A stretch of DNA of 64,000 nt from Armatimonadota bacterium (lineage in GTDB: Bacteria > Armatimonadota > Zipacnadia > Zipacnadales > JABUFB01). The stretch is taken from the NCBI GenBank assembly GCA_013314775.1, contig JABUFB010000013.1, positions 1-64,000 of the forward strand, read 5' to 3'. Each line of letters starts with the position of its first letter. Position 1 is the first letter of the stretch. Positions 31,529-42,197 of the stretch are shown in pieces. The translations under genes and the position numbers were made by a program. The notes below the pieces were generated by a model. The model saw only the letters and a program-made list of their open reading frames with translations, was not told where the DNA came from and ran no database searches.

Positions 31529-32614
31529 CTAGTCACGCCCCAGTTTCCGGCCGCGTTCCACGAAGTACTTCATTGTCTCGTAATCGATTTCCGGCGGCTC
31601 AGAATGGTCTGAATGCAGGACGTATCCGCCGCCGCCCTGAACCACCGGCAGAATCTTCTTGTCCATCTCCTCGTCGATCTGCGCCCGGTCATTGCTGATC
31701 AGGCAGCGGACATCCACACCGCCGAAGAATGAGATCTTGTCCCCGAAGCGCGCGAAGAGCGTGGGCAGGTCCATGCCCGCCTTGACTTCCATTGCCTGCA
31801 GGCAGTCCATCCCCGCTTCGATCAGGCCGGGCACCAGGGGCTCCACGTAACCGCAGGAGTGCACGATGACCTTGCAGCCAAGAGAATGGGCATAGTCAAA
31901 AAGGCGCGCGTGTCCGGGCTGGATGATCTCCGCGTACATCTGCGGGGACATGAAGGGTCTGTTCTTGAACCCCATATCCTCGTAGAAGAAGAAACCGTCC
32001 GGCTTGCCCTCTTCGGCGAAGAGCACCTCCAGGTGGTTGATGGTCAGGTCTGTGTACGTCTGCACCATATCCTTGACCCAGTCCGGATCAAGCGCCATGC
32101 CCATCAGCATGTACTCATGCCCGCAGACCGGGTGCATCTGCTCGAAGGGCGCCACCCCGGCCCAGCAAAAGAATCGCTCCTTCTCAGCCGCGTACTGCTT
32201 CGCTGCACGGTAGCTTTCGAAGGGGATCCGCCGCCGATCCAAACCAACCAGGAAGGGCTTCGCGTGCTCCTCCCAGGTGGCTCGATCCTTCACCGTGAAG
32301 TCCACGTGTTCCGGAGTGCTGTCATGCAGTTTGTGCCGCCGCAACTTGGCGCCATTTCCGTCAAGCTGGAGAATGGTCTCGTCGGTTTCCTCGATGAGCA
32401 CCGGCTCGAAGTCCAGCTTCGCCACGGAGTTGAGCCACCCGCCGGTGCGCAGGTCCTGGCCGAAATGCTCTTGTACGTCCTCGTCCGGGCCGATGTGCCC
32501 CTCATCGCGCCAACGTTTCACCGTCGCGCCCCACGGGCTGACGGCAACGGGGGTCTGATCCACGGGCTTCAGGGCCAGCGTCTGGACCATGCGCTCGATA
32601 CTGGTCATGGACAT
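31529..32614 (-). CDS. Uroporphyrinogen decarboxylase-like (URO-D superfamily) protein
   Basis: This 361-residue TIM-barrel protein belongs to the URO-D/MtaA superfamily, whose members are either uroporphyrinogen decarboxylases or corrinoid/thiol methyltransferases. It has the HSCG motif (VIVHSCGYVEP) found in the zinc-dependent methyltransferase branch. However, the third Cys ligand expected later is replaced by a YVLHSDHSEPP segment, so zinc binding may differ. GGVDVR is the conserved barrel-end motif. The ATG at 32614 follows GGAGGAA by 8 bases. It is the last gene of the hydrogenase cluster strand, 81 bases after the phosphatase gene. It is not expected to be heme-pathway HemE. Substrate unknown. 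Confidence 0.8.
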   Translation of the reverse strand: MSMTSIERMVQTLALKPVDQTPVAVSPWGATVKRWRDEGHIGPDEDVQEHFGQDLRTGGWLNSVAKLDFEPVLIEETDETILQLDGNGAKLRRHKLHDSTPEHVDFTVKDRATWEEHAKPFLVGLDRRRIPFESYRAAKQYAAEKERFFCWAGVAPFEQMHPVCGHEYMLMGMALDPDWVKDMVQTYTDLTINHLEVLFAEEGKPDGFFFYEDMGFKNRPFMSPQMYAEIIQPGHARLFDYAHSLGCKVIVHSCGYVEPLVPGLIEAGMDCLQAMEVKAGMDLPTLFARFGDKISFFGGVDVRCLISNDRAQIDEEMDKKILPVVQGGGGYVLHSDHSEPPEIDYETMKYFVERGRKLGRD

Positions 32615-32695: not shown

Positions 32696-33850
32696 CTAGA
32701 CGCGCTCAATCACCACCAGCTTTCCTGCAGCCTGCAGCTTCTCGGCGAGGAGTTCGATGATCTTGTGTCGGGGGAGAATGCCCTGCTGGCGGAAGGTGAT
32801 GTGGGTATTGGCGGGGTTTCGGGCCTGCCCCACGAGAATGTTCACCCGGTCCGCCGAGCGCAGCAGGTTGTGCAGTTCCGTGACCGCACTTGGCTCCTCG
32901 AAGGACGCATCGTCTTCGTCGAGAACATTGTACAACTGATTGAGCGTCACCGCGCCTTCGGTCACCAGGTCCACGCCATCAAGCATATACGCGGGCGGAG
33001 TCACCAGGCTGTGCGAGGCATGGTCCATTCTCACTTCAGTCCCCAGGTACCGTGCAACCAGGTCCGCCGTGGTCGCCCCACAGATCACCTTGGCCCCATC
33101 CATGGCCATGAACCGGTGGGCTACCTCGTGATCCCGCCGCTTCTCTGCGGGCGGTCCAGTCAGGATTGTCACTGTCTTCCCCGCGCGGCACCAGGCGTAG
33201 AGCGCCGTGGTGTCGTCTCCTGCCGTGCCGGCGCTCAACTGCACGGCGCGTCCGGTCACGGCTTGGGGTATATCCGCCGGCCGAATACCCTCTCCAAGGA
33301 GACCCGTCACGTACCTGCAGGCGCCCTCCACCTGCCAGCCCCCGGGCACTCGTCCGCCGAGACCTGCCTGACTCACGCCGTCGGACATGAGCAAGATGCC
33401 CTCACCCGGCTCCAGGTGACAGCTTGCCTCTTCCGTGATCGCCCCCTCGACCACCACAGTCCGCCTTGGCAGCTCAACCGCGCTCGTCCGGGCGACCAGA
33501 ACGGCCCCCGGCGCCTCATAGGACAGCACCGTGGTCTCGCCGTCATTGAGGATCCGCGCCAGACTAAAGGCCACGTATAAGGACGGGTCAGTCTTGGTCT
33601 TCTCAATGCTGGTGACCAGGCTCGCGAAAGCACGGCGCAGGCTGAACCCTTCCTCCAGCAGCCCCATGAGCCGGGCCACACAGATCTGCGCCGCGACGTT
33701 CGCCTTGATGCCCGAGCCGATGCCGTCCGCGCACACCATTGTCGTGGCCGCCGGGGTGCGCACCCATCGCACCAGGTCTCCGCAGGGCTCATTCGGCTGC
33801 TTCGAGGCCTGGCTGGTGGCTATTTCCACGTGGAGGTACCGGGTCGCCAA
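32696..33850 (-). CDS. SpoIIE-type PP2C phosphatase linked to hydrogenase
   Basis: This 384-residue protein combines an N-terminal SpoIIE/PP2C serine phosphatase domain with an unnamed C-terminal domain. The phosphatase domain spans about 1-220, with metal-binding motifs CADGIGSG, MSDGVSQAG and AGDDTTALYAW. The C-terminal domain (about 225-384) contains KVICGATTADLVARYLG. The same architecture is known beside [FeFe] hydrogenase operons in Clostridia. The start is a TTG at 33850 preceded by AAGGAGG. It overlaps the end of the upstream sensor gene by 31 bases, a strong coupling. It would remove phosphate from an unknown partner, probably in response to the upstream H-cluster/PAS sensor. No anti-sigma kinase or STAS protein is in the window. 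Confidence 0.85.
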   Translation of the reverse strand: MATRYLHVEIATSQASKQPNEPCGDLVRWVRTPAATTMVCADGIGSGIKANVAAQICVARLMGLLEEGFSLRRAFASLVTSIEKTKTDPSLYVAFSLARILNDGETTVLSYEAPGAVLVARTSAVELPRRTVVVEGAITEEASCHLEPGEGILLMSDGVSQAGLGGRVPGGWQVEGACRYVTGLLGEGIRPADIPQAVTGRAVQLSAGTAGDDTTALYAWCRAGKTVTILTGPPAEKRRDHEVAHRFMAMDGAKVICGATTADLVARYLGTEVRMDHASHSLVTPPAYMLDGVDLVTEGAVTLNQLYNVLDEDDASFEEPSAVTELHNLLRSADRVNILVGQARNPANTHITFRQQGILPRHKIIELLAEKLQAAGKLVVIERV

Positions 33851-35601
33851 TCTTCCGCCTCCTTGTCCACACCTTCGGCCTCCTCGTGGGCCATTCGCAT
33901 GAGGTTCTCCACCAGCTTCTCGCCCTGGGCCGCGCTCTCCCCGAGAAACTGGGCGATCTGCTGGGCCATCCGCATCTGGTGTTCGAGGAGCTGCTGGGCC
34001 TGCTCAATGGTCTGGTTGCGCATGCGGTCCAGTGTCGCGCGGTCGGTCTGGCTCCGGGTGATATTTACGAAAATGCCCACATACTGGCGTTCTTCCCGCA
34101 GCGGGTAGATGATCTGGTGGCAGATCAGTCCATACTTGTCGTGCTTGCCCACCATCTCAATCAGGTCCGTCTCCCCGGCCACGAGCCGCTCGAAGGGGTC
34201 CGGGTCCATCAGGTATGAGATCTTTCGCCCCAACACGGCGTCCGAGCACATGAACATCCGTCGGAAAGCAGGGTTCATGCTGATGATGGTGAGCCGCTCG
34301 TCCAAGATCACGATACCATTGGGGCTGGTGTCAATGATCCGGTCGGTACGCTGTTCGGCGAGACGACGCATATAGGGAATGCACATCTCCGGTTCGGCCA
34401 TCCCGCGAATGACCGCGATCGCCTTGTCCCGACAACTCGCGTAGCCGCATGCACCGCAGTTCAGTTCATCCTCCGGCGACACTTTCCCGGTGCGCGCGAG
34501 GGCTTCGCGGATCTGCTCCTCGGTGATCGGCTCGCCCTCGTCCACCGCGCGGGGCCCGTACCAGGTGCAAAGGTCGGCATCGACCGCCGCGCTCTCAGTG
34601 GGTGCCCCGGGGTGCTCTCGGGCAAACTCCAGAAGCTCTCTGCGCCGTTCATAAAGGTTCTGCTCCCGCCGGATGCCAGGTCCGCCCACGCATCCCTGGG
34701 GGCAGAAGAGCGGTTCAATGAGCACGCCATCATCCAAGCTGTCCAGTTCGTCCAGCGCTTCCTTGAGCTCCTCGAACCCGCTTACGGACATGGTCTGGGT
34801 TGCCAGCAGGTCCGCGGTGAGGTCGGCCGTGCGCAGGCTCCCGCCCTCCACGGGGTAGAACCGGGCGTTCCCGCCCGGCTCTTCGTCGAACCAGCTCTCC
34901 TCGCACTCCTGCAGCGTGATCCCCTGCTGCTCCAGCCATTCGAACAACTCGGTGAATGTCAGCGCACAATCGACAAGCCCTGCGTGCTCGGGCCGCTCCG
35001 CTTCCGCCTTCTTTGCCACGCACGGGCCGATGAAGATGACCTTCGCATCAGGGCCGAACCTGGCCTTGATATGCCGCGCGTGAGCGAGCATGGGGCTGAC
35101 AATTGGCGTCAGGGTCTCTGCCAGGTCCGGACGGTACTGCTCCACGTAACTCACCGCAGCCGGACAGGCGGTGCAGACGTGGACTTTGTCTGGCTCTGCA
35201 TTGACCAGGTCCGCAGTCTTCCGCGCAACCATGTATGCCCCGATGGCCGTCTCGCCCACGTAGCCGAAGCCGAGCTTCCGAAGCGCTGAAGGCAGTCGCC
35301 GGCGCTCCCATTCGGACAGCACGCCGGCGAAGGAAGGAGCGATGCTGGCGGCAACCATGCCGCCCTGCGAGACAATCGCCCCGGCCTTTTCCACATCATT
35401 GCGGAAGGACTTGGCTCCCTGTGGGCACTCGCGGATGCAGGTCCCGCACGATATGCAGCGGTCAGGGTCCACGAATGCCTGGCCATGCTCCATGCGAATC
35501 GCTTTCACCGGGCACACGCGCACGCACCGGTAGCAGTCCCGGCACCGGGCCTTGTTGGTGAACACGATCTGTCCGGGTCTCTGCTGTCTCTCCACGGTCA
35601 T
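33820..35601 (-). CDS. Sensory [FeFe]-hydrogenase-like protein with PAS domain (HydS/HfsB-like)
   Basis: This 593-residue protein has two ferredoxin clusters (C20/23/26/30 and C49/52/55/59). A truncated H-cluster domain follows, with the ligands still present: CTAC146P, GPC194VAKK, C300PQGC304. A 4Fe-4S domain has C382, C385, C390 and C407 (CGACGYASC). A PAS domain (about 418-530, IDTSPNGIVILDERL) and a C-terminal coiled coil complete it. The motifs differ from catalytic hydrogenases (TACP instead of TSCCP, GPC instead of MPC, CPQGC instead of ACPGGC), the pattern of sensory group C/D enzymes. It probably senses H2 or redox state and signals to the overlapping SpoIIE phosphatase. It is separated from hydA by 170 bases that contain two palindromic repeats. 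Confidence 0.85.
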   Translation of the reverse strand: MTVERQQRPGQIVFTNKARCRDCYRCVRVCPVKAIRMEHGQAFVDPDRCISCGTCIRECPQGAKSFRNDVEKAGAIVSQGGMVAASIAPSFAGVLSEWERRRLPSALRKLGFGYVGETAIGAYMVARKTADLVNAEPDKVHVCTACPAAVSYVEQYRPDLAETLTPIVSPMLAHARHIKARFGPDAKVIFIGPCVAKKAEAERPEHAGLVDCALTFTELFEWLEQQGITLQECEESWFDEEPGGNARFYPVEGGSLRTADLTADLLATQTMSVSGFEELKEALDELDSLDDGVLIEPLFCPQGCVGGPGIRREQNLYERRRELLEFAREHPGAPTESAAVDADLCTWYGPRAVDEGEPITEEQIREALARTGKVSPEDELNCGACGYASCRDKAIAVIRGMAEPEMCIPYMRRLAEQRTDRIIDTSPNGIVILDERLTIISMNPAFRRMFMCSDAVLGRKISYLMDPDPFERLVAGETDLIEMVGKHDKYGLICHQIIYPLREERQYVGIFVNITRSQTDRATLDRMRNQTIEQAQQLLEHQMRMAQQIAQFLGESAAQGEKLVENLMRMAHEEAEGVDKEAEDWRPGTSTWK

Positions 35602-35771: not shown

Positions 35772-37787
35772 TCAACCCACTTCCACAACACCCAACTGCG
35801 CCGCAAGGGCATCCCGCGCCTGCTCGAACCCGCAGCGCTCAAAGACTTGGTCTCCGATGGCAACTGACGGCCCGCGATTGCAGCGCTCGAGGCAGAACGT
35901 CGCGCCCACGTCCACCCGGTCCGTCAACCCGTTCTCCTCAATGTAGCCAATCAACCGCTTCAGGAGTTCCTGAGACCCGCGTACGAAGCAGCTTGTCCCC
36001 ACGCAGACTCGGACCCGCACTTTGGGCAGGTCCTCGCCCGTCACGAAGGGGATGTCCTCGTCGGCGATGCGCTTGCGGCTGTGGTAGTGGGTGTGCAGGA
36101 GGGAATGAGCTTTCTCCCCGCCCACTTCACCCAGGGTGGTCTCATACGCTTTCGCCACGTACGGATTTTCCTGGGACTTATGAAGCTGCAGCATCTTGTC
36201 GGCCATATACAAGCCCTCGGTGCGCCGGGCTTTCACATCAGCGTCGGTCGCGATGGGCTGTCCCGCGCCGCCGATGCACCCGCCCGGGCACGCCATGACT
36301 TCCACCAGGTGGTACTCGCATTCGCCGCTGCGAACGCGCTCCACGAGTTTCCGTGCATTGCCGAGGCCGTGCACAATCGCAAGCCGCAGCTCCTGCCCGG
36401 CGATGCTGAGCGTGGCTTCGCGCACACCGTCCGTCCCACGCACCATCTCAAAGTTCGGCGCCTCAATCTTGACCCCGCTGATCTGCTCGGCAGCGTAGCG
36501 CAGGACGGCTTCACTCACGCCTCCAGAGTTACCGAAGATCACACCCGCACCCGTCTTGAAACCCATGGGCAGGTCCAGGGATTCCGGCTGCAGCTTCCCG
36601 AACTGGAGGCCCGCGCCCTCGATCATGCGGGCAAGCTCCTGGGTCGTCAAGACGAAGTCAACGTCCCGCACGCCGTCCTTCTCAAACTCCGGGCGCGTGG
36701 CCTCGAACTTCTTCGCGGTGCACGGCATGATCGACACCACAACCAGGTCCTTGGCCTCGCGGTTGAACTCCGCCGGCAGCATCTCCTTGGCCAGCGATCC
36801 GAACATTTGCTGGGGCGAGCGGCAGGAGGACAGGTTCGGCAGCATGTCCGGACAGTACTGCTCGGCAAACTTTACCCAGCCCGGACAGCAAGAGGTGAAC
36901 TGGGGCATCCTCTCGCCCTTCACAAAGCGCTTCAGGAACTCGGTGCCCTCCTCGATCACCGTCAGGTCCGCCGCGAAGCATGTGTCGTAGACGCGATCGA
37001 ACCCCATTGCCCGCAGGCCTGCCACGATCTGGCCGATGGTCACCACGCCCGGATCCAGGCCGAAACACTCGCCCAGGGCAACCCGCACCGCGGGAGCGAT
37101 CTGCGCCACCACGATCTTGGTGGGGTCCTCCAGCGCCTTCCACACATCATCCACGTCAGACTTCGGCGTGATTGCCCCTGTGGGGCAGACCGCAGCGCAT
37201 TGGCCGCAGTAGACGCATTCCACACCGCTCAGGTCCTTGCCGAAAGCCGGCCCGACAGTCACCTGGCTGCCGCGGTTGGCGAAATCGATGGCGCCGATGC
37301 CCTGAACCTCCGAGCACATCCGCACGCAGTCACCGCAGAGCACGCACTTGTTCGGGTCCCGCACCAGCGAGGGCGAACTGCGGTCGATGGGCGCTTCCTT
37401 CGCGGTTCGCTTGAAACGCACTTCCTGGATGCCCAGGCGCCGGGCAAGCCCCTGCAGCTTGCAGGTACTGCTCCGGGCGCAGGTGGGGCAACTCTGGTCG
37501 TGGTTCGCCAGGAGCAGCTCCACCGCGATCTTCCGCATCTCCCGAATCTCTTCAGTGTTGGTGCGAAGGACCATTCCCGGCTCCGGCGCGGTGGAACACG
37601 AAGTGACAATGCCCCGACCTTCGATGTCCACGATACACAGCCGGCAAGCGCCGTAGACGCTGAGATTCGAGTGGTAGCAGAAGGTGGGAATGTCGATGTT
37701 CGCCTTCCGGCAGAGTTCCAGCAGATTCGGCTCGCCCTCGATTGGGATCTGGCGGCCGTCGATGGTGACAAAGCTGTCGCTGGTCAT
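35772..37787 (-). CDS. hydA: [FeFe] hydrogenase catalytic subunit HydA (trimeric, NADH/ferredoxin type)
   Basis: This 671-residue catalytic subunit is fused to a chain of Fe-S modules. They are a [2Fe-2S] domain (C37, C48, C51, C64), a His-Cys3 [4Fe-4S] site (H96, C100, C103, C109), two [4Fe-4S] sites (C148/151/154/158 and C191/194/197/201), and the H-cluster domain. The H-cluster motifs are complete: TSCCPGW (C300), MPCTAKK (C356) and MACPGGCIGG (C500, C504). A C-terminal thioredoxin-like [2Fe-2S] domain (about 590-671, CVGTSC ... CLERCNRGP) matches Thermotoga HydA. With HydB and HydC it forms a cytoplasmic hydrogenase coupling NADH and reduced ferredoxin to H2. The ATG at 37787 overlaps the hydB stop (ATGA). 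Confidence 0.95.
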   Translation of the reverse strand: MTSDSFVTIDGRQIPIEGEPNLLELCRKANIDIPTFCYHSNLSVYGACRLCIVDIEGRGIVTSCSTAPEPGMVLRTNTEEIREMRKIAVELLLANHDQSCPTCARSSTCKLQGLARRLGIQEVRFKRTAKEAPIDRSSPSLVRDPNKCVLCGDCVRMCSEVQGIGAIDFANRGSQVTVGPAFGKDLSGVECVYCGQCAAVCPTGAITPKSDVDDVWKALEDPTKIVVAQIAPAVRVALGECFGLDPGVVTIGQIVAGLRAMGFDRVYDTCFAADLTVIEEGTEFLKRFVKGERMPQFTSCCPGWVKFAEQYCPDMLPNLSSCRSPQQMFGSLAKEMLPAEFNREAKDLVVVSIMPCTAKKFEATRPEFEKDGVRDVDFVLTTQELARMIEGAGLQFGKLQPESLDLPMGFKTGAGVIFGNSGGVSEAVLRYAAEQISGVKIEAPNFEMVRGTDGVREATLSIAGQELRLAIVHGLGNARKLVERVRSGECEYHLVEVMACPGGCIGGAGQPIATDADVKARRTEGLYMADKMLQLHKSQENPYVAKAYETTLGEVGGEKAHSLLHTHYHSRKRIADEDIPFVTGEDLPKVRVRVCVGTSCFVRGSQELLKRLIGYIEENGLTDRVDVGATFCLERCNRGPSVAIGDQVFERCGFEQARDALAAQLGVVEVG

Positions 37788-39688
37788 GATATCGCTCCCG
37801 AGATCGCATTGAACTTGCACGCCGCCACGCATGCCCCGCACTTGATGCATTTCGCCGGGTCGATCACATGCGGCTGTTTGCGCTCGCCCGAAATTGCTCC
37901 CACCGGGCAGGTGCGCAGACACAGGCCGCAACCCTTGCACAACTGGGCATCGATCTCCGGCGTGAGCAGCGCTTTGCACTTGCCCGCCGGGCAGCGCTTC
38001 TGAAACACGTGGGCCTCGTACTCCGCCCGGAAATGCCGCAGTGTGGAGAGAACCGGGTTCGGCGCGGTCTTCCCAAGGCCGCAAAGCGACCCTTTCTGAA
38101 CCGCCACCGCCAACTTTTCGAGAATGTCCAGAGTGCCCTGGTCTGCCCGGCCCTCCACGATGTCATCCAGCAAGGCCAGCATCTGCTTGGTGCCCTCCCG
38201 GCACAGGACGCACTTGCCGCAGGACTCATTCTGGGTGAACTGCATGAAGAACCGGGCCATGGCCACCATGCAGGTGTTGCGGTTCATGGCCACCAAACCG
38301 CCCGAACCTACCATCGCCCCCACACCGCGCAGGGAGTCAAAGTCCAGCGGCAGGTCGAGATGCTCCTCAGTCAGGCATCCGCCCGACGGCCCGCCGATCT
38401 GCACCGCCTTGAACCCTTCCGGGTCGATGCTCCCGTCCTTCCGGGTGATCCCGCCGCCGATATCAAAGATGATTTCCCGCAGCGTGGTGCCGAAGGGCAC
38501 CTCGATCAGCCCGGTGTTAGCCACATGCCCGGTCAGCGCGAATGTCTTCGTGCCCGGGGACTTCTCGGTCCCGCGCCGCCGGAACTCCGCCGCGCCCATG
38601 TTCAGGATGAGGGGGATGGTTGCCAGCGTCTCCACGTTGTTGATGACCGTGGGCTTGCCCCACAGGCCGCTTTGAGCCGGAAACGGCGGCTTCGGGCTGG
38701 GCATCCCGCGATGGCCCTCGATGGAGGCGATCAGCGCAGTCTCCTCACCGCACACGAATGCCCCCGCGCCTTCCATCACGTGGAGCTCCAGCTTCAGGCC
38801 TGTGCCGAACACATTGTCGCCCAGGATGCCCATCGCCCGGGCATCTTCCACTGCTTTCTTCATCCGGGCCACCGCCAGCGGATACTCGGCGCGCACGTAG
38901 ACGTAGCCTTCATCCGCGCCAATTGCCCGGGCGGCGATCATCATGCCCTCGATCACCCGGTGCGGCGCGCCTTCCATGACGCTGCGGTCCATGAACGCGC
39001 CGGGATCGCCCTCGTCGCCGTTGCAGATCACGTACTTCTTGCTTTCAGGCTGAATGCGGGTCAGCTCCCATTTTCGGCCCGTGGGGAATCCACCGCCGCC
39101 GCGTCCGCGGATACCCGAGAGTGTGATCTCCTCGCAGATCGTCTCCGGCTTGAGTTCCGTGAATGCCCGTCGGGCCGCGACATAGCCGTCATTGGCGATG
39201 TACTCCCGGATGTCTTCCGGGTCCATGATCCCGCAGCCCGCGAGGACTGTGCGAGTCTGGCGCTGGTAGAAGGGGATCTGCGCGGTGCCCTTACAGGGGG
39301 TGTGCGCGACCGGGTCCACATACAGGAGCCGGTCCACGACCTCCCCTCGCACCAGTGTGGCCTCGACGATTTCCGCGACGTCTTCGGGCCGCACCCGCGT
39401 GTAGAGGACTCCGTCGGGCTCCACCGTCACCAGCGGGCCCATCTGACAGAAGCCCTGGCATCCGCTCATGGAGACGAGCACCGAGCCGCGATCCGTGTGC
39501 TCATTGAATTCCACGGCCACTTTCAGACCTGCTGTGGCAACCTGCTCCACGAAGGCCTCGAACACGTCCAGGGCGCCGTTGGCGATGCAGCCCGTCCCGC
39601 CGCAGATCACTACTCTGCGTGCTGCCTTCTCGCTCGCCTGCTTGTATGCCGCCGCCGTCTCTTCAAGAGTCGTCACTGGAGGGGTCAT
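37784..39688 (-). CDS. hydB: Hydrogenase subunit HydB (NuoF-like, NADH-binding flavoprotein)
   Basis: This 634-residue diaphorase subunit starts with a thioredoxin-like [2Fe-2S] domain (about 20-125, CGGTGCIANGA ... CQGFCQMGP). A NuoF-like FMN/NADH domain follows (GIRGRGGGGFPTGRKWE, CNGDEGDPGAFMDR), then the SLBB region and the 4Fe-4S site ESCGKCVLCREG. Two C-terminal ferredoxin clusters end the protein (CKGCGLCLRTCPVGAI, CIKCGACVAACKFNAI). It takes electrons from NADH and is the site proposed for electron bifurcation in characterised HydABC. The ATG at 39688 overlaps the hydC stop (ATGA), and its own stop overlaps hydA, so the three genes are translationally coupled. Confidence 0.95.
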   Translation of the reverse strand: MTPPVTTLEETAAAYKQASEKAARRVVICGGTGCIANGALDVFEAFVEQVATAGLKVAVEFNEHTDRGSVLVSMSGCQGFCQMGPLVTVEPDGVLYTRVRPEDVAEIVEATLVRGEVVDRLLYVDPVAHTPCKGTAQIPFYQRQTRTVLAGCGIMDPEDIREYIANDGYVAARRAFTELKPETICEEITLSGIRGRGGGGFPTGRKWELTRIQPESKKYVICNGDEGDPGAFMDRSVMEGAPHRVIEGMMIAARAIGADEGYVYVRAEYPLAVARMKKAVEDARAMGILGDNVFGTGLKLELHVMEGAGAFVCGEETALIASIEGHRGMPSPKPPFPAQSGLWGKPTVINNVETLATIPLILNMGAAEFRRRGTEKSPGTKTFALTGHVANTGLIEVPFGTTLREIIFDIGGGITRKDGSIDPEGFKAVQIGGPSGGCLTEEHLDLPLDFDSLRGVGAMVGSGGLVAMNRNTCMVAMARFFMQFTQNESCGKCVLCREGTKQMLALLDDIVEGRADQGTLDILEKLAVAVQKGSLCGLGKTAPNPVLSTLRHFRAEYEAHVFQKRCPAGKCKALLTPEIDAQLCKGCGLCLRTCPVGAISGERKQPHVIDPAKCIKCGACVAACKFNAISGAIS

Positions 39689-40203
39689 GCGCTCGCCTCT
39701 TCCGCCAGGATGTCCTCGACGATGCTGACAGCTTTCTCGGGGGTCACCTGGCCATATACGGTTTCATTTACAACCATCGCCGGTGCCAGACCGCAGGCGC
39801 CCAGGCAGGAAACAGTCTCCACAGTGAACAGCATGTCTCCGGTGGTGTCCTGGTCTTCCCCCAGCCCCAGCCGCTTCTTGATAGCGTCCAACAGGTCCAT
39901 GGAGCCCTTCACATTGCAGGCCGTACCGTTGCAGAGGCGGACTAGATACTTGCCTTTGGGCTTGAGGGTGAAATGGGCGTAAAAGGTGGCTACCCCATAC
40001 ACCCGCGCCGGGGGCACTCCCAGGGACGTCGCCACATATGTGAGCACCGCTTCGGGCAGGTAACGGTACTCCTCTTGCACCTGCTGCAGGATCGGGATGA
40101 GCTTCGCCGGATCGCGCCCATTCCTGTCCAGAATCTCGCAGACTTTCTCGAACTTTCGCGTTGTCGCGTAACCGTTGCTGAGGGGTTGGTCAATCGCGCT
40201 CAT
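39685..40203 (-). CDS. hydC: Hydrogenase subunit HydC (NuoE-like [2Fe-2S] protein)
   Basis: This 172-residue small subunit is homologous to the 24-kDa NuoE subunit. It has an N-terminal helical bundle (ILDRNGRDPAKLIPILQQVQEEYRYLP) and a thioredoxin-like domain with [2Fe-2S] ligands CNGTAC and CLGAC. The ATG at 40203 follows AGGAGG by about 7 bases and overlaps the rex stop by 14 bases. It passes electrons between HydB and HydA. Confidence 0.94.
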   Translation of the reverse strand: MSAIDQPLSNGYATTRKFEKVCEILDRNGRDPAKLIPILQQVQEEYRYLPEAVLTYVATSLGVPPARVYGVATFYAHFTLKPKGKYLVRLCNGTACNVKGSMDLLDAIKKRLGLGEDQDTTGDMLFTVETVSCLGACGLAPAMVVNETVYGQVTPEKAVSIVEDILAEEASA

Positions 40204-40867
40204 CGTCAAGTCCTCCTGTGTGCTCGGCGGAGCGGAGCATGTTCTCGAGTCGGTTGCTCAGCACAGCCAGGCTCGCTGATAACGACACGTTCTCCAGGAT
40301 GATCGGGTCCGGCACGGTAATGTCCGCGGGTGCGAAATTCCAGATGGCTTTGATCCCGCTGCGCACCATGAGATCGGCCACTTCCTGAGCCTGATCGCCC
40401 GGCGTTGTGATGATCCCGATGTGCACGTGCATCCGTCGGACGAGGTCTGCGAACTTGTCCAGATGCAACACGGCCTTGCCATGTATCTCCGTGCCGACCT
40501 TGGCGGGATCAATGTCGAATGCCGCGACGATGTTCAGACCGCTCTCCTCGAAGCCTCTGTACCCCAGCAGCGCGCTCCCCAGGTTCCCGGCGCCCACCAG
40601 GAAGGCTTCGGTGGCATTGCGCCAGCCGAGAGTGTCTTCGATCACATCAATAAGCGCCTGCACCGGATAGCCCACCTTGGGCCTGCCGGTGATCCCCGTC
40701 GCCTGCAGGTCCTTGCGCACCTGGGTGGGCTGCAGCCCGAGCTCCTCGGCGATGTGAGTACACGAAACGACCTCGCGTCCCAGCCCCTGAAGCGTCCTCA
40801 GCAGCCGCAGATATGACGGCAGCCTTCTCAACGCGGGTACCGGTATCGCATCTGTGACTTTGTTCAT
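40190..40867 (-). CDS. rex: Redox-sensing transcriptional repressor Rex
   Basis: Rex binds DNA when NAD+ dominates and lets go when NADH rises, derepressing fermentative and hydrogenase genes. The 225 residues contain an N-terminal winged helix (PALRRLPSYLRLLRTLQ, LGLQPTQVRKDLQATG) and a Rossmann domain with GAGNLGSALLGY. The C-terminus has the typical NFAPADITVP segment. The ATG at 40867 has AAGGAGGG 8 bases upstream; an in-frame ATG further upstream overlaps that site. It is the gene directly before hydCBA. I could not find a clear TTGTGAAATnnTTTCACAA-type Rex box in the 50-base gap upstream. Confidence 0.94.
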   Translation of the reverse strand: MNKVTDAIPVPALRRLPSYLRLLRTLQGLGREVVSCTHIAEELGLQPTQVRKDLQATGITGRPKVGYPVQALIDVIEDTLGWRNATEAFLVGAGNLGSALLGYRGFEESGLNIVAAFDIDPAKVGTEIHGKAVLHLDKFADLVRRMHVHIGIITTPGDQAQEVADLMVRSGIKAIWNFAPADITVPDPIILENVSLSASLAVLSNRLENMLRSAEHTGGLDDERD

Positions 40868-40917: not shown

Positions 40918-41991
40918 CTAACAGGCCGCACCGTCCACCACTGCAGTCTCCACCACGTCAACTGTCCTGCGCCAGGCACGCCCCGTCTCCATGAACGCCC
41001 TGATATTGGCCATCGGCGTATCTTGGGGCAGGTCGCAGCCGGTGCTCAGGATGAACCCCGGCACGTCCTGCATCGATTCCAGCAGCTCGCGCGTCACCGC
41101 GGACACCGTCTGCTCATTGCCCCGCAGGATGGCCACCGGGTCGATGTTGCCAATAAGCAGCGTATCCTGGTCAAGTGTGCGAGCCAGCCGGCTGAAGTCC
41201 ATGGGGCTGTCCAGGCTCAAACCCGCCGCACCTGTCGCCGCCATGTCCTCGACGATGTGCGCCGTATCCCCGCAGATGTGCAGGATCACCTCGGCATCAT
41301 CCATCAGCCCAATCACCTCGCGGGCGTATGAGCCGGCGAACTCCCGGTACTGCTTCGGCCCGAGCATGACCGCCGTCGGGTCGAGCATCATCAGGAAGTC
41401 CGCCCCGCTTTCCAACAGCGCCCGGGCATAGCGCGTCACCGTCTGGGCCGCGAACTCCAGCACCGCGTGGGCAGTCTCCGGGTCCATGACCACGTTCATC
41501 GCAAGCTGCGTGGCATCGCACATGAGCCCGGCCAGAGTGTACGGGCCGGTGATGTACGCTCCCACCGGCACCGGCAGACCCGCCCGCAGGTGCTTCATGA
41601 CCTCGAGATAGACCATGACTCGGCCGTCCGCCAGGATGTCCACGTGCCGGAACTTGCGCAGGTCATCGAGGCTCTTGACCTCGTGTCCCTCCACCGTCGG
41701 GGTATTGTCCAGCGGGAAACGCACAGGCAGCCCCAGCGCACTGGCCTCCACCGACAGGTCCATCAGGAACAGGAGGGCATCCGGCCGGGTGGCCTCGTAC
41801 AGGCGCGCAATGCTCTGGTACTGGACTGAGTGGTTGAACTGGTTCTGTTTGACCGAGGAGCGCGTGAGGTTCAGTCCGGGGTAGCCCATGAGGGGCATGA
41901 TCGCCCGGCGGCCCTCCTCGTAGTAAAGCGTACCGGCGAGTTCTCTCAGGGAACGTCGGGCGTCTCGCGAACGGTTTGAAAGAGGTTTCAT
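40918..41991 (-). CDS. MtaA/CmuA-type methyltransferase (URO-D superfamily, Zn-dependent)
   Basis: This 357-residue TIM-barrel protein has the complete zinc site of methylcobamide:coenzyme M methyltransferases: H238-x-C240 (ILHICGDT) and C319 (STGCDLPQDTP). That is nearly the numbering of archaeal MtaA (H237, C239, C316). Such enzymes move a methyl group between a corrinoid protein and a thiol. The N-terminus (MKPLSNRSRDARRSLRELAG) is longer and more basic than usual. The ATG at 41991 has GGGAGAG about 9 bases upstream. It is the first gene of the strand that continues into rex and hydCBA, 50 bases before rex. Its promoter carries a triple TATCGATA operator. No corrinoid protein gene is nearby. 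Confidence 0.85.
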   Translation of the reverse strand: MKPLSNRSRDARRSLRELAGTLYYEEGRRAIMPLMGYPGLNLTRSSVKQNQFNHSVQYQSIARLYEATRPDALLFLMDLSVEASALGLPVRFPLDNTPTVEGHEVKSLDDLRKFRHVDILADGRVMVYLEVMKHLRAGLPVPVGAYITGPYTLAGLMCDATQLAMNVVMDPETAHAVLEFAAQTVTRYARALLESGADFLMMLDPTAVMLGPKQYREFAGSYAREVIGLMDDAEVILHICGDTAHIVEDMAATGAAGLSLDSPMDFSRLARTLDQDTLLIGNIDPVAILRGNEQTVSAVTRELLESMQDVPGFILSTGCDLPQDTPMANIRAFMETGRAWRRTVDVVETAVVDGAAC

Positions 41992-42035: not shown

Positions 42036-42071
42036 TATCGATATTGTTATATCGATACTTTATTATCGATA
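42036..42071. promoter_or_regulatory. Three TATCGATA palindromes at exact 14-bp spacing (operator)
   Basis: The 8-bp perfect palindrome TATCGATA occurs at 42036-42043, 42050-42057 and 42064-42071. The copies are separated each time by 6 AT-rich bases. They overlie the -35 region, the -10/spacer and the start site of the minus-strand promoter at 42046-42074, which is the position of a repressor-type operator. The binding protein is not identifiable. Confidence 0.8.
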
Positions 42072-42074
42072 CAA
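42046..42074 (-). promoter_or_regulatory. Promoter of the MtaA-rex-hydrogenase strand
   Basis: On the minus strand TTGTAT (complement of 42069-42074) and TATAAC (complement of 42046-42051) are separated by exactly 17 bases. Transcription would start near 42039, giving a leader of about 48 bases before the ATG at 41991. Three TATCGATA boxes overlap it. Confidence 0.75.
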
Positions 42075-42197
42075 TACTACCCATTTCATTGCCTGTCAAT
42101 CCCTTTTTGAGAAAAAATGCGCAATCTTTCCCGCGCGCACAGCAGAGCAATGTTGAAGACCGGAAATGGGCGGTGGCGTCCAGGATGGGAGAGGAAT

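Follow-up and report, generated by a model that had tools for sequence, protein, structure and literature searches.

The stretch of DNA analysed here (the window, 64,000 nucleotides) comes from an Armatimonadota MAG (G000), the genome of which was searched both by pattern and by family. On the minus strand the window carries a run of genes in the order that a sequence-only reading had described: an MtaA-like gene, rex, hydC, hydB, hydA, an H-cluster/PAS sensor, a SpoIIE phosphatase and a URO-D gene. The first gene (40918-41991, ATG at 41991) encodes a URO-D family (MtaA-like) methyltransferase (PF01208, E 2e-63) that reaches the cut-off of none of the named MtaA/MtbA families among the NCBIfam models. 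The rex gene (40190-40867), placed in the TGI clade (QVRKDLQATGITGRPKVGY) by the tree described below, encodes the candidate regulator of the array; this protein has winged-helix and Rossmann NAD(H)-binding domains (PF06971, E 2e-16; PF02629, E 9e-21), scores 293 bits with NF003994 (cut-off 130) and matches Rex in the PDB with E 2e-43. Then come hydC, a NuoE-like 2Fe-2S thioredoxin-like subunit (39685-40209; PF01257, E 1e-51), hydB, a NuoF-like FMN subunit (37784-39688; PF01512, PF10589), and hydA, the [FeFe]-hydrogenase catalytic subunit (35772-37787, start codon inferred; PF02906, E 3e-96, and PF02256). They are followed by a protein with an H-cluster domain and a PAS-like sensor (33820-35601; TIGR04105, E 3.5e-59, below cut-off) and by a SpoIIE-type serine phosphatase (32696-33850; TIGR02865, E 7e-8, below cut-off), and the run ends with the second URO-D family protein (31529-32614), read directly from its ORF and similarity.

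Three exact copies of TATCGATA lie ahead of this run, at 42036-42043, 42050-42057 and 42064-42071, with their centres 14 bp apart and 6-bp gaps between them. The three perfect 8-bp palindromes at exact 14-bp spacing are therefore present as originally noticed; the span given for them, 42036-42074, had the right start but ran 3 bases too far, as the array (minus strand) ends at 42071. It is unique in the genome: no further TATCGATA without mismatch was found elsewhere in the window, and a pattern search of the whole 6.12-Mb genome detected no other place with a spaced TATCGATA pair at up to two mismatches (even with up to three, 0.01 are expected per shuffled window). In the sister genome G001 all three elements recur, identical in 24/24 motif bases, while the gaps there have diverged (TATCGATA-ccaaag-TATCGATA-ttgagt-TATCGATA, compared to ataaag and taacaa in the window), as expected of a binding site on which selection acts. 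In the open-access literature we found no TATCGATA described as a bacterial operator; the papers listed dealt with Drosophila DRE/BEAF, primers or otherwise unrelated matters.

The promoter scan placed TTGACA (-35, 42099-42094) and TATTGT (-10, 42076-42071) on the minus strand with a 17-bp spacer (10/12), in a layout as in relatives, and G001 keeps this promoter as TTGACA-17-TATCTT. The operator thus does stand at the promoter of the uroD/mtaA-rex-hyd unit, as had been proposed, although not at the hexamers proposed. The minus strand does contain TTGTAT (42069-42074) and TATAAC (42046-42051), 17 bases apart, but nearly all of this pair falls within the array and G001 has not kept it, so that TTGACA-17-TATTGT is the better candidate. 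Nor do the palindromes span the -35, the -10 and the start: the array begins at the final base of the -10, just downstream of the promoter, and covers only the start site, predicted at about 42063-42065. In most promoters of relatives and targets the array begins no earlier than the final base of the -10 and no later than 4 bases beyond it; an array in this place lies over the start site, in keeping with simple repression. Immediately ahead of the -35, at 42119-42136 on the minus strand, is a GC stem-loop with a T tract behind it (GCGCGGGAAAGATTGCGC-ATTTTTTCTC); it is almost unchanged in G001 and may be terminator-like or an upstream element.

Arrays in other genomes and the TGI clade of Rex

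A phylum-wide pattern search showed that the array is kept not only in G001 but also in further Armatimonadota. With up to three mismatches the triple pattern occurred in 8/291 Armatimonadota genomes, compared to 1/291 for a reversed control pattern. All eight genomes encode a Rex of the TGI clade, and their arrays precede rex (or uroD-rex), hydG or adhE. In G045, G046, G064, G148 and G288 rex itself has the array directly ahead of it, as have hydG in G046 and G060 and bifunctional adhE in G148; weaker matches precede rex in G060 and adhE in G046 and G064. The target genes were named by NCBIfam (NF010378 AdhE, 1373-1385 bits; TIGR03955 HydG, 430 bits; TIGR03918 HydF). In G000 and G001 the operator is separated from rex by the uroD/mtaA-like gene; in the family member G003 that gene does not intervene, and a variant array stands directly before rex. 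In G000, hydG is located elsewhere without an array and no AdhE reached the family cut-off, which leaves the operon itself as the only TGI-Rex site seen there.

Counted by regulator, 10/12 Armatimonadota genomes with TGI-Rex have the array; in one of them (G077) the second step is 13 bp long. The other two are G097, where a Rex box of ordinary appearance, TTGTTAATTAGTTAACGA, takes the array's place in the promoter and overlaps the -10 of TTGACA-17-TATATT, and G125, where neither array nor box was found at the promoter. We set aside two perfect TATCGATA copies 14 bp apart near a GntR-like gene (G147:C295; L047 5002-5023), as this genome has no TGI-Rex; the pair is probably the site of another regulator.

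To define the clade, Rex genes were gathered from 151 related genomes and named genomes were scanned for TGI-Rex. The recognition helix and wing read QVRKDLxxTGIxGxPxxGY in TGI-Rex and QxRKDLSYFGEFGxxGxGY in ordinary Rex. Arg48 and Lys49 (of QVRKDL) are invariant in the TGI-Rex alignment, while the equivalent of T. maritima Arg60 is Pro or Cys. In a 207-row tree (a quick tree with SH-aLRT support and no bootstrap) TGI-Rex forms one cluster beside a smaller VRQD group; the SH-aLRT is 90 for the fork with 88/89 TGI rows and 98 for the one that takes in the remaining row plus two relatives. The scan of named genomes found TGI-Rex also in Planctomycetota, Spirochaetota, Sumerlaeota, Delongbacteria, Nitrospirota, Peptococcaceae, Myxococcota and others.

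The arrays follow this clade. An upstream array score of at least 18/24 was reached by 26/88 TGI-Rex, 0/110 other Rex and 0/8 VRQD-Rex genes, counts in which related rows are not independent and in which the window and G001 score as misses because uroD intervenes before rex. Measured against dinucleotide-preserving shuffles, the mean z was 3.3 for TGI-Rex, 0.07 for other Rex and 2.4 for VRQD-Rex. Array-bearing TGI promoters came from Armatimonadota, Planctomycetota, Delongbacteria, Verrucomicrobia and Peptococcaceae; many others, chiefly in Spirochaetota and some Planctomycetota, have one dyad or none. Five TATCGATA-like elements with a 14-bp period precede the TGI-Rex gene in L236 (a Peptococcaceae MAG), and also in L254 and L264. 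In the VRQD sister group (L090, L091, L095, L096, L097, L098), Gln replaces Lys49 and the boxes are of GTTAA type; T. ethanolicus Rex (RQD) resembles this group, and the change from Lys to Gln seems coupled to that from G to T at position 5. The whole inference is built on MAGs and promoter alignments.

The binding unit

Is each 8-mer a binding site of its own, as the first description implied, or half of a larger one? Position-resolved conservation favours the second reading. In a phase test on 18 arrays of unambiguous register, with positions counted from the dyad centre, positions 4, 7 and 9 of the outer elements were conserved at 92, 94 and 92%, and positions 5, 8 and 11 at 64, 61 and 56%. 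Position 7 was kept and its mirror position 8 lost in a ratio of 13:1 (p=0.002), a bias that would not arise if each 8-mer were read as its own palindrome. Mismatches were also rarer in the middle element than in the outer ones (8/144 versus 60/288, p=2e-5); the middle element would be a perfect palindrome and the best conserved because two overlapping boxes share it. The inner and outer halves of the outer elements did not differ significantly in mismatches (48 versus 38; 35 versus 21, p=0.08).

The functional unit thus seems to be ATCGATA-N6-TATCGAT, a dyad centred on each 6-bp gap. In the window this predicts two variant Rex boxes on the minus strand: an upstream one, ATCGATA-ATAAAG-TATCGAT (42051-42070), centred in the first gap, and a downstream one, ATCGATA-TAACAA-TATCGAT (42037-42056), which shares the middle element. 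Related promoters contain other forms, namely a single dyad TCGATT-N6-TATCGA in several Spirochaetota TGI-Rex promoters, a mixed box ATTGTTA-gaatgt-TATCGAT in G064, and CGAGAA-N4-TTATCG in other TGI promoters. Like a Rex operator, the array has inverted half-sites on either side of a 6-bp core gap and carries G and A at positions 7 and 4, and in relatives it occurs at rex, adhE and hydG promoters. Its half-site is ATCGATA and not the canonical TTGTGAA or TTGTTAA, which makes it a variant operator and not a canonical ROP. The mismatch to the known box had been taken to separate the regulator from Rex; this argument finds no support, as the gap dyads match the known Rex half-site in length and gap and keep both contacted bases.

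The array as a candidate operator of the operon's own Rex

Rex proteins are dimeric repressors that sense NADH. In our judgement the array is very probably an NADH-responsive autoregulatory operator of the operon's own Rex, made of two overlapping variant boxes. The sequence data show the array and its conservation, its link to one Rex clade, its targets, its dyad geometry and its place at the promoter; binding by Rex, the response to NADH and repression are inferred from the family, and which dyad is occupied is likewise an inference. Each half of the dimer would read one element, so that the unit is an inverted repeat over a 6-bp gap and three elements make two overlapping boxes with the middle element common to both. 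When NADH is scarce, Rex with NAD+ would sit on one box and block RNA polymerase. A rise in NADH would release Rex, and uroD-rex-hydCBA-sensor-phosphatase would be made; the hydrogenase would then allow NADH and ferredoxin to be re-oxidised through H2 evolution. Co-production of Rex with the NADH-linked FeFe hydrogenase would close the feedback loop. As the centres are 14 bp apart and a dimer takes up ∼20 bp, two dimers cannot easily share the middle element at once. The overlap may instead provide two alternative registers that raise the effective affinity, or the nucleus of a larger assembly.

The sequence-only reading had invoked an unknown regulator distinct from Rex. In its strongest form, this alternative has another protein bind each TATCGATA as a dimer, cooperatively at 14-bp steps, with Rex merely co-regulated. 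An 8-bp palindrome does stand at every element in the window and the sister genome, and some Peptococcaceae promoters extend the 14-bp period to five elements. However, independent palindromes would show neither the bias of position 7 over 8 nor a better-kept middle element, orthologous promoters have ordinary Rex boxes, and several Spirochaetota have a single two-element dyad. Moreover, no other DNA-binding gene common to the array loci was seen, and the arrays follow one Rex clade across phyla, at rex, hyd, hydG and adhE. We therefore consider a separate regulator improbable.

Still less probable, to a degree that we would be surprised to see it borne out, is that the array serves the second, canonical Rex of G000, or both Rex proteins. 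The genome does encode two, and Rex boxes are related to one another; the second Rex, of ordinary type (G000:C11:308548-308694; L066, L287), lies downstream of two NuoM/NuoN-type antiporter genes. But it is the TGI clade that the arrays accompany; they are found at none of the 110 promoters of other Rex genes, and the array is altered at positions 5 and 6, the most sensitive ones in a canonical Rex. That it is a functionless chance repeat, for which one could cite an AT-rich promoter region within a GC-rich genome, is hardly credible given the expectation of 0.01 per window even at three mismatches, the conservation in the sister genome despite diverged gaps and the same layout across several phyla.

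A second, non-TGI Rex was found in 11/12 Armatimonadota genomes with TGI-Rex, and canonical ROPs with two mismatches occur at 9 places in G000, compared to 1 for a control pattern. As a hypothesis, the altered positions 5 and 6 fit specificity insulation between the Rex paralogues. More tentatively, and with some doubt on our part, TGI-Rex may use an operator grammar of overlapping dyads, with three to five elements at a 14-bp period, in which neighbouring dimers share an element and the changes in half-site, helix and wing prevent cross-talk with canonical Rex; the shared palindromic element might then serve alternating occupancy or higher-order assembly.

The Rex system itself is well known, whereas the overlapping operator form and the regulon map for these lineages look new when compared with the open-access literature. 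The assignment gives a regulator to an orphan-looking operator, and it would make Rex regulons readable in lineages that are mostly uncultured and have received little study (Armatimonadota, many Planctomycetota and others); predictions of H2 and ethanol formation there otherwise take no account of regulation. It would also offer a natural example of a repressor and its operator evolving together once the gene had been duplicated, with two paralogues that respond to the same ligand, and place the specificity differences between them in named residues and bases.

Comparison with known Rex systems

The closest structural reference is the complex of T. maritima Rex with the TM0201 operator ATTTGAGAAATTTATCACAAAA (PDB 7WB3). 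There, Arg48 reads G at position 7 and Lys49 reads A at position 4, the contacts being Gua5 and Ade8 of 5'-ATTTGAGAAATTTATCACAAAA-3', and Arg60 touches T at position 8 via the minor groove (PMC8836258). The recognition and wing region is SYFGEFGKRGVGY in T. maritima and xxTGIxGxPxxGY in TGI-Rex, with Arg60 replaced by Pro or Cys. Unlike in the T. maritima operator, position 8 is not fixed as T in TGI arrays; it is free in the outer elements, and TGI-Rex lacks Arg60. Some TGI-Rex sites (CGAGAA-N4-TTATCG) are almost identical to the crystallised operator TTGAGAA-N4-TTATCAC.

Compared to the Rex operator (the ROP TTGTGAA-N4-TTCACAA and its T. ethanolicus form ATTGTTA-N6-TAACAAT), the array has the same dyad length and gap, keeps the G and the A of positions 7 and 4, and likewise stands before rex, [FeFe] hydrogenase, hydG and adhE. 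It differs in the half-site (ATCGATA), in boxes that overlap on a shared middle half-site, and in having three elements, or up to five in Peptococcaceae. In S. aureus Rex, positions 4 and 5 of TTGTGAA are the most sensitive to change (PMC2883068). Counted from the dyad centre these are positions 6 and 5, which differ in the array, and a canonical Rex is therefore expected to bind it poorly. With the T. ethanolicus motif (PMC5886521) the array shares half-site length and gap, and 5/7 half-site bases are equal.

The predicted targets agree with the documented ones, as adhE, hydG, FeFe hydrogenase and rex are all known Rex targets, varying by species, with experimental support for adhE and hydG (PMC5886521, PMC6391272, PMC2883068). 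In Caldicellulosiruptor and Thermoanaerobacterium, Rex likewise combines autoregulation with control of FeFe hydrogenase, hydG and, in Thermoanaerobacterium, adhE (PMC6391272, PMC5886521); its boxes there are described as palindromes of 18-20 bp, not as overlapping triplets.
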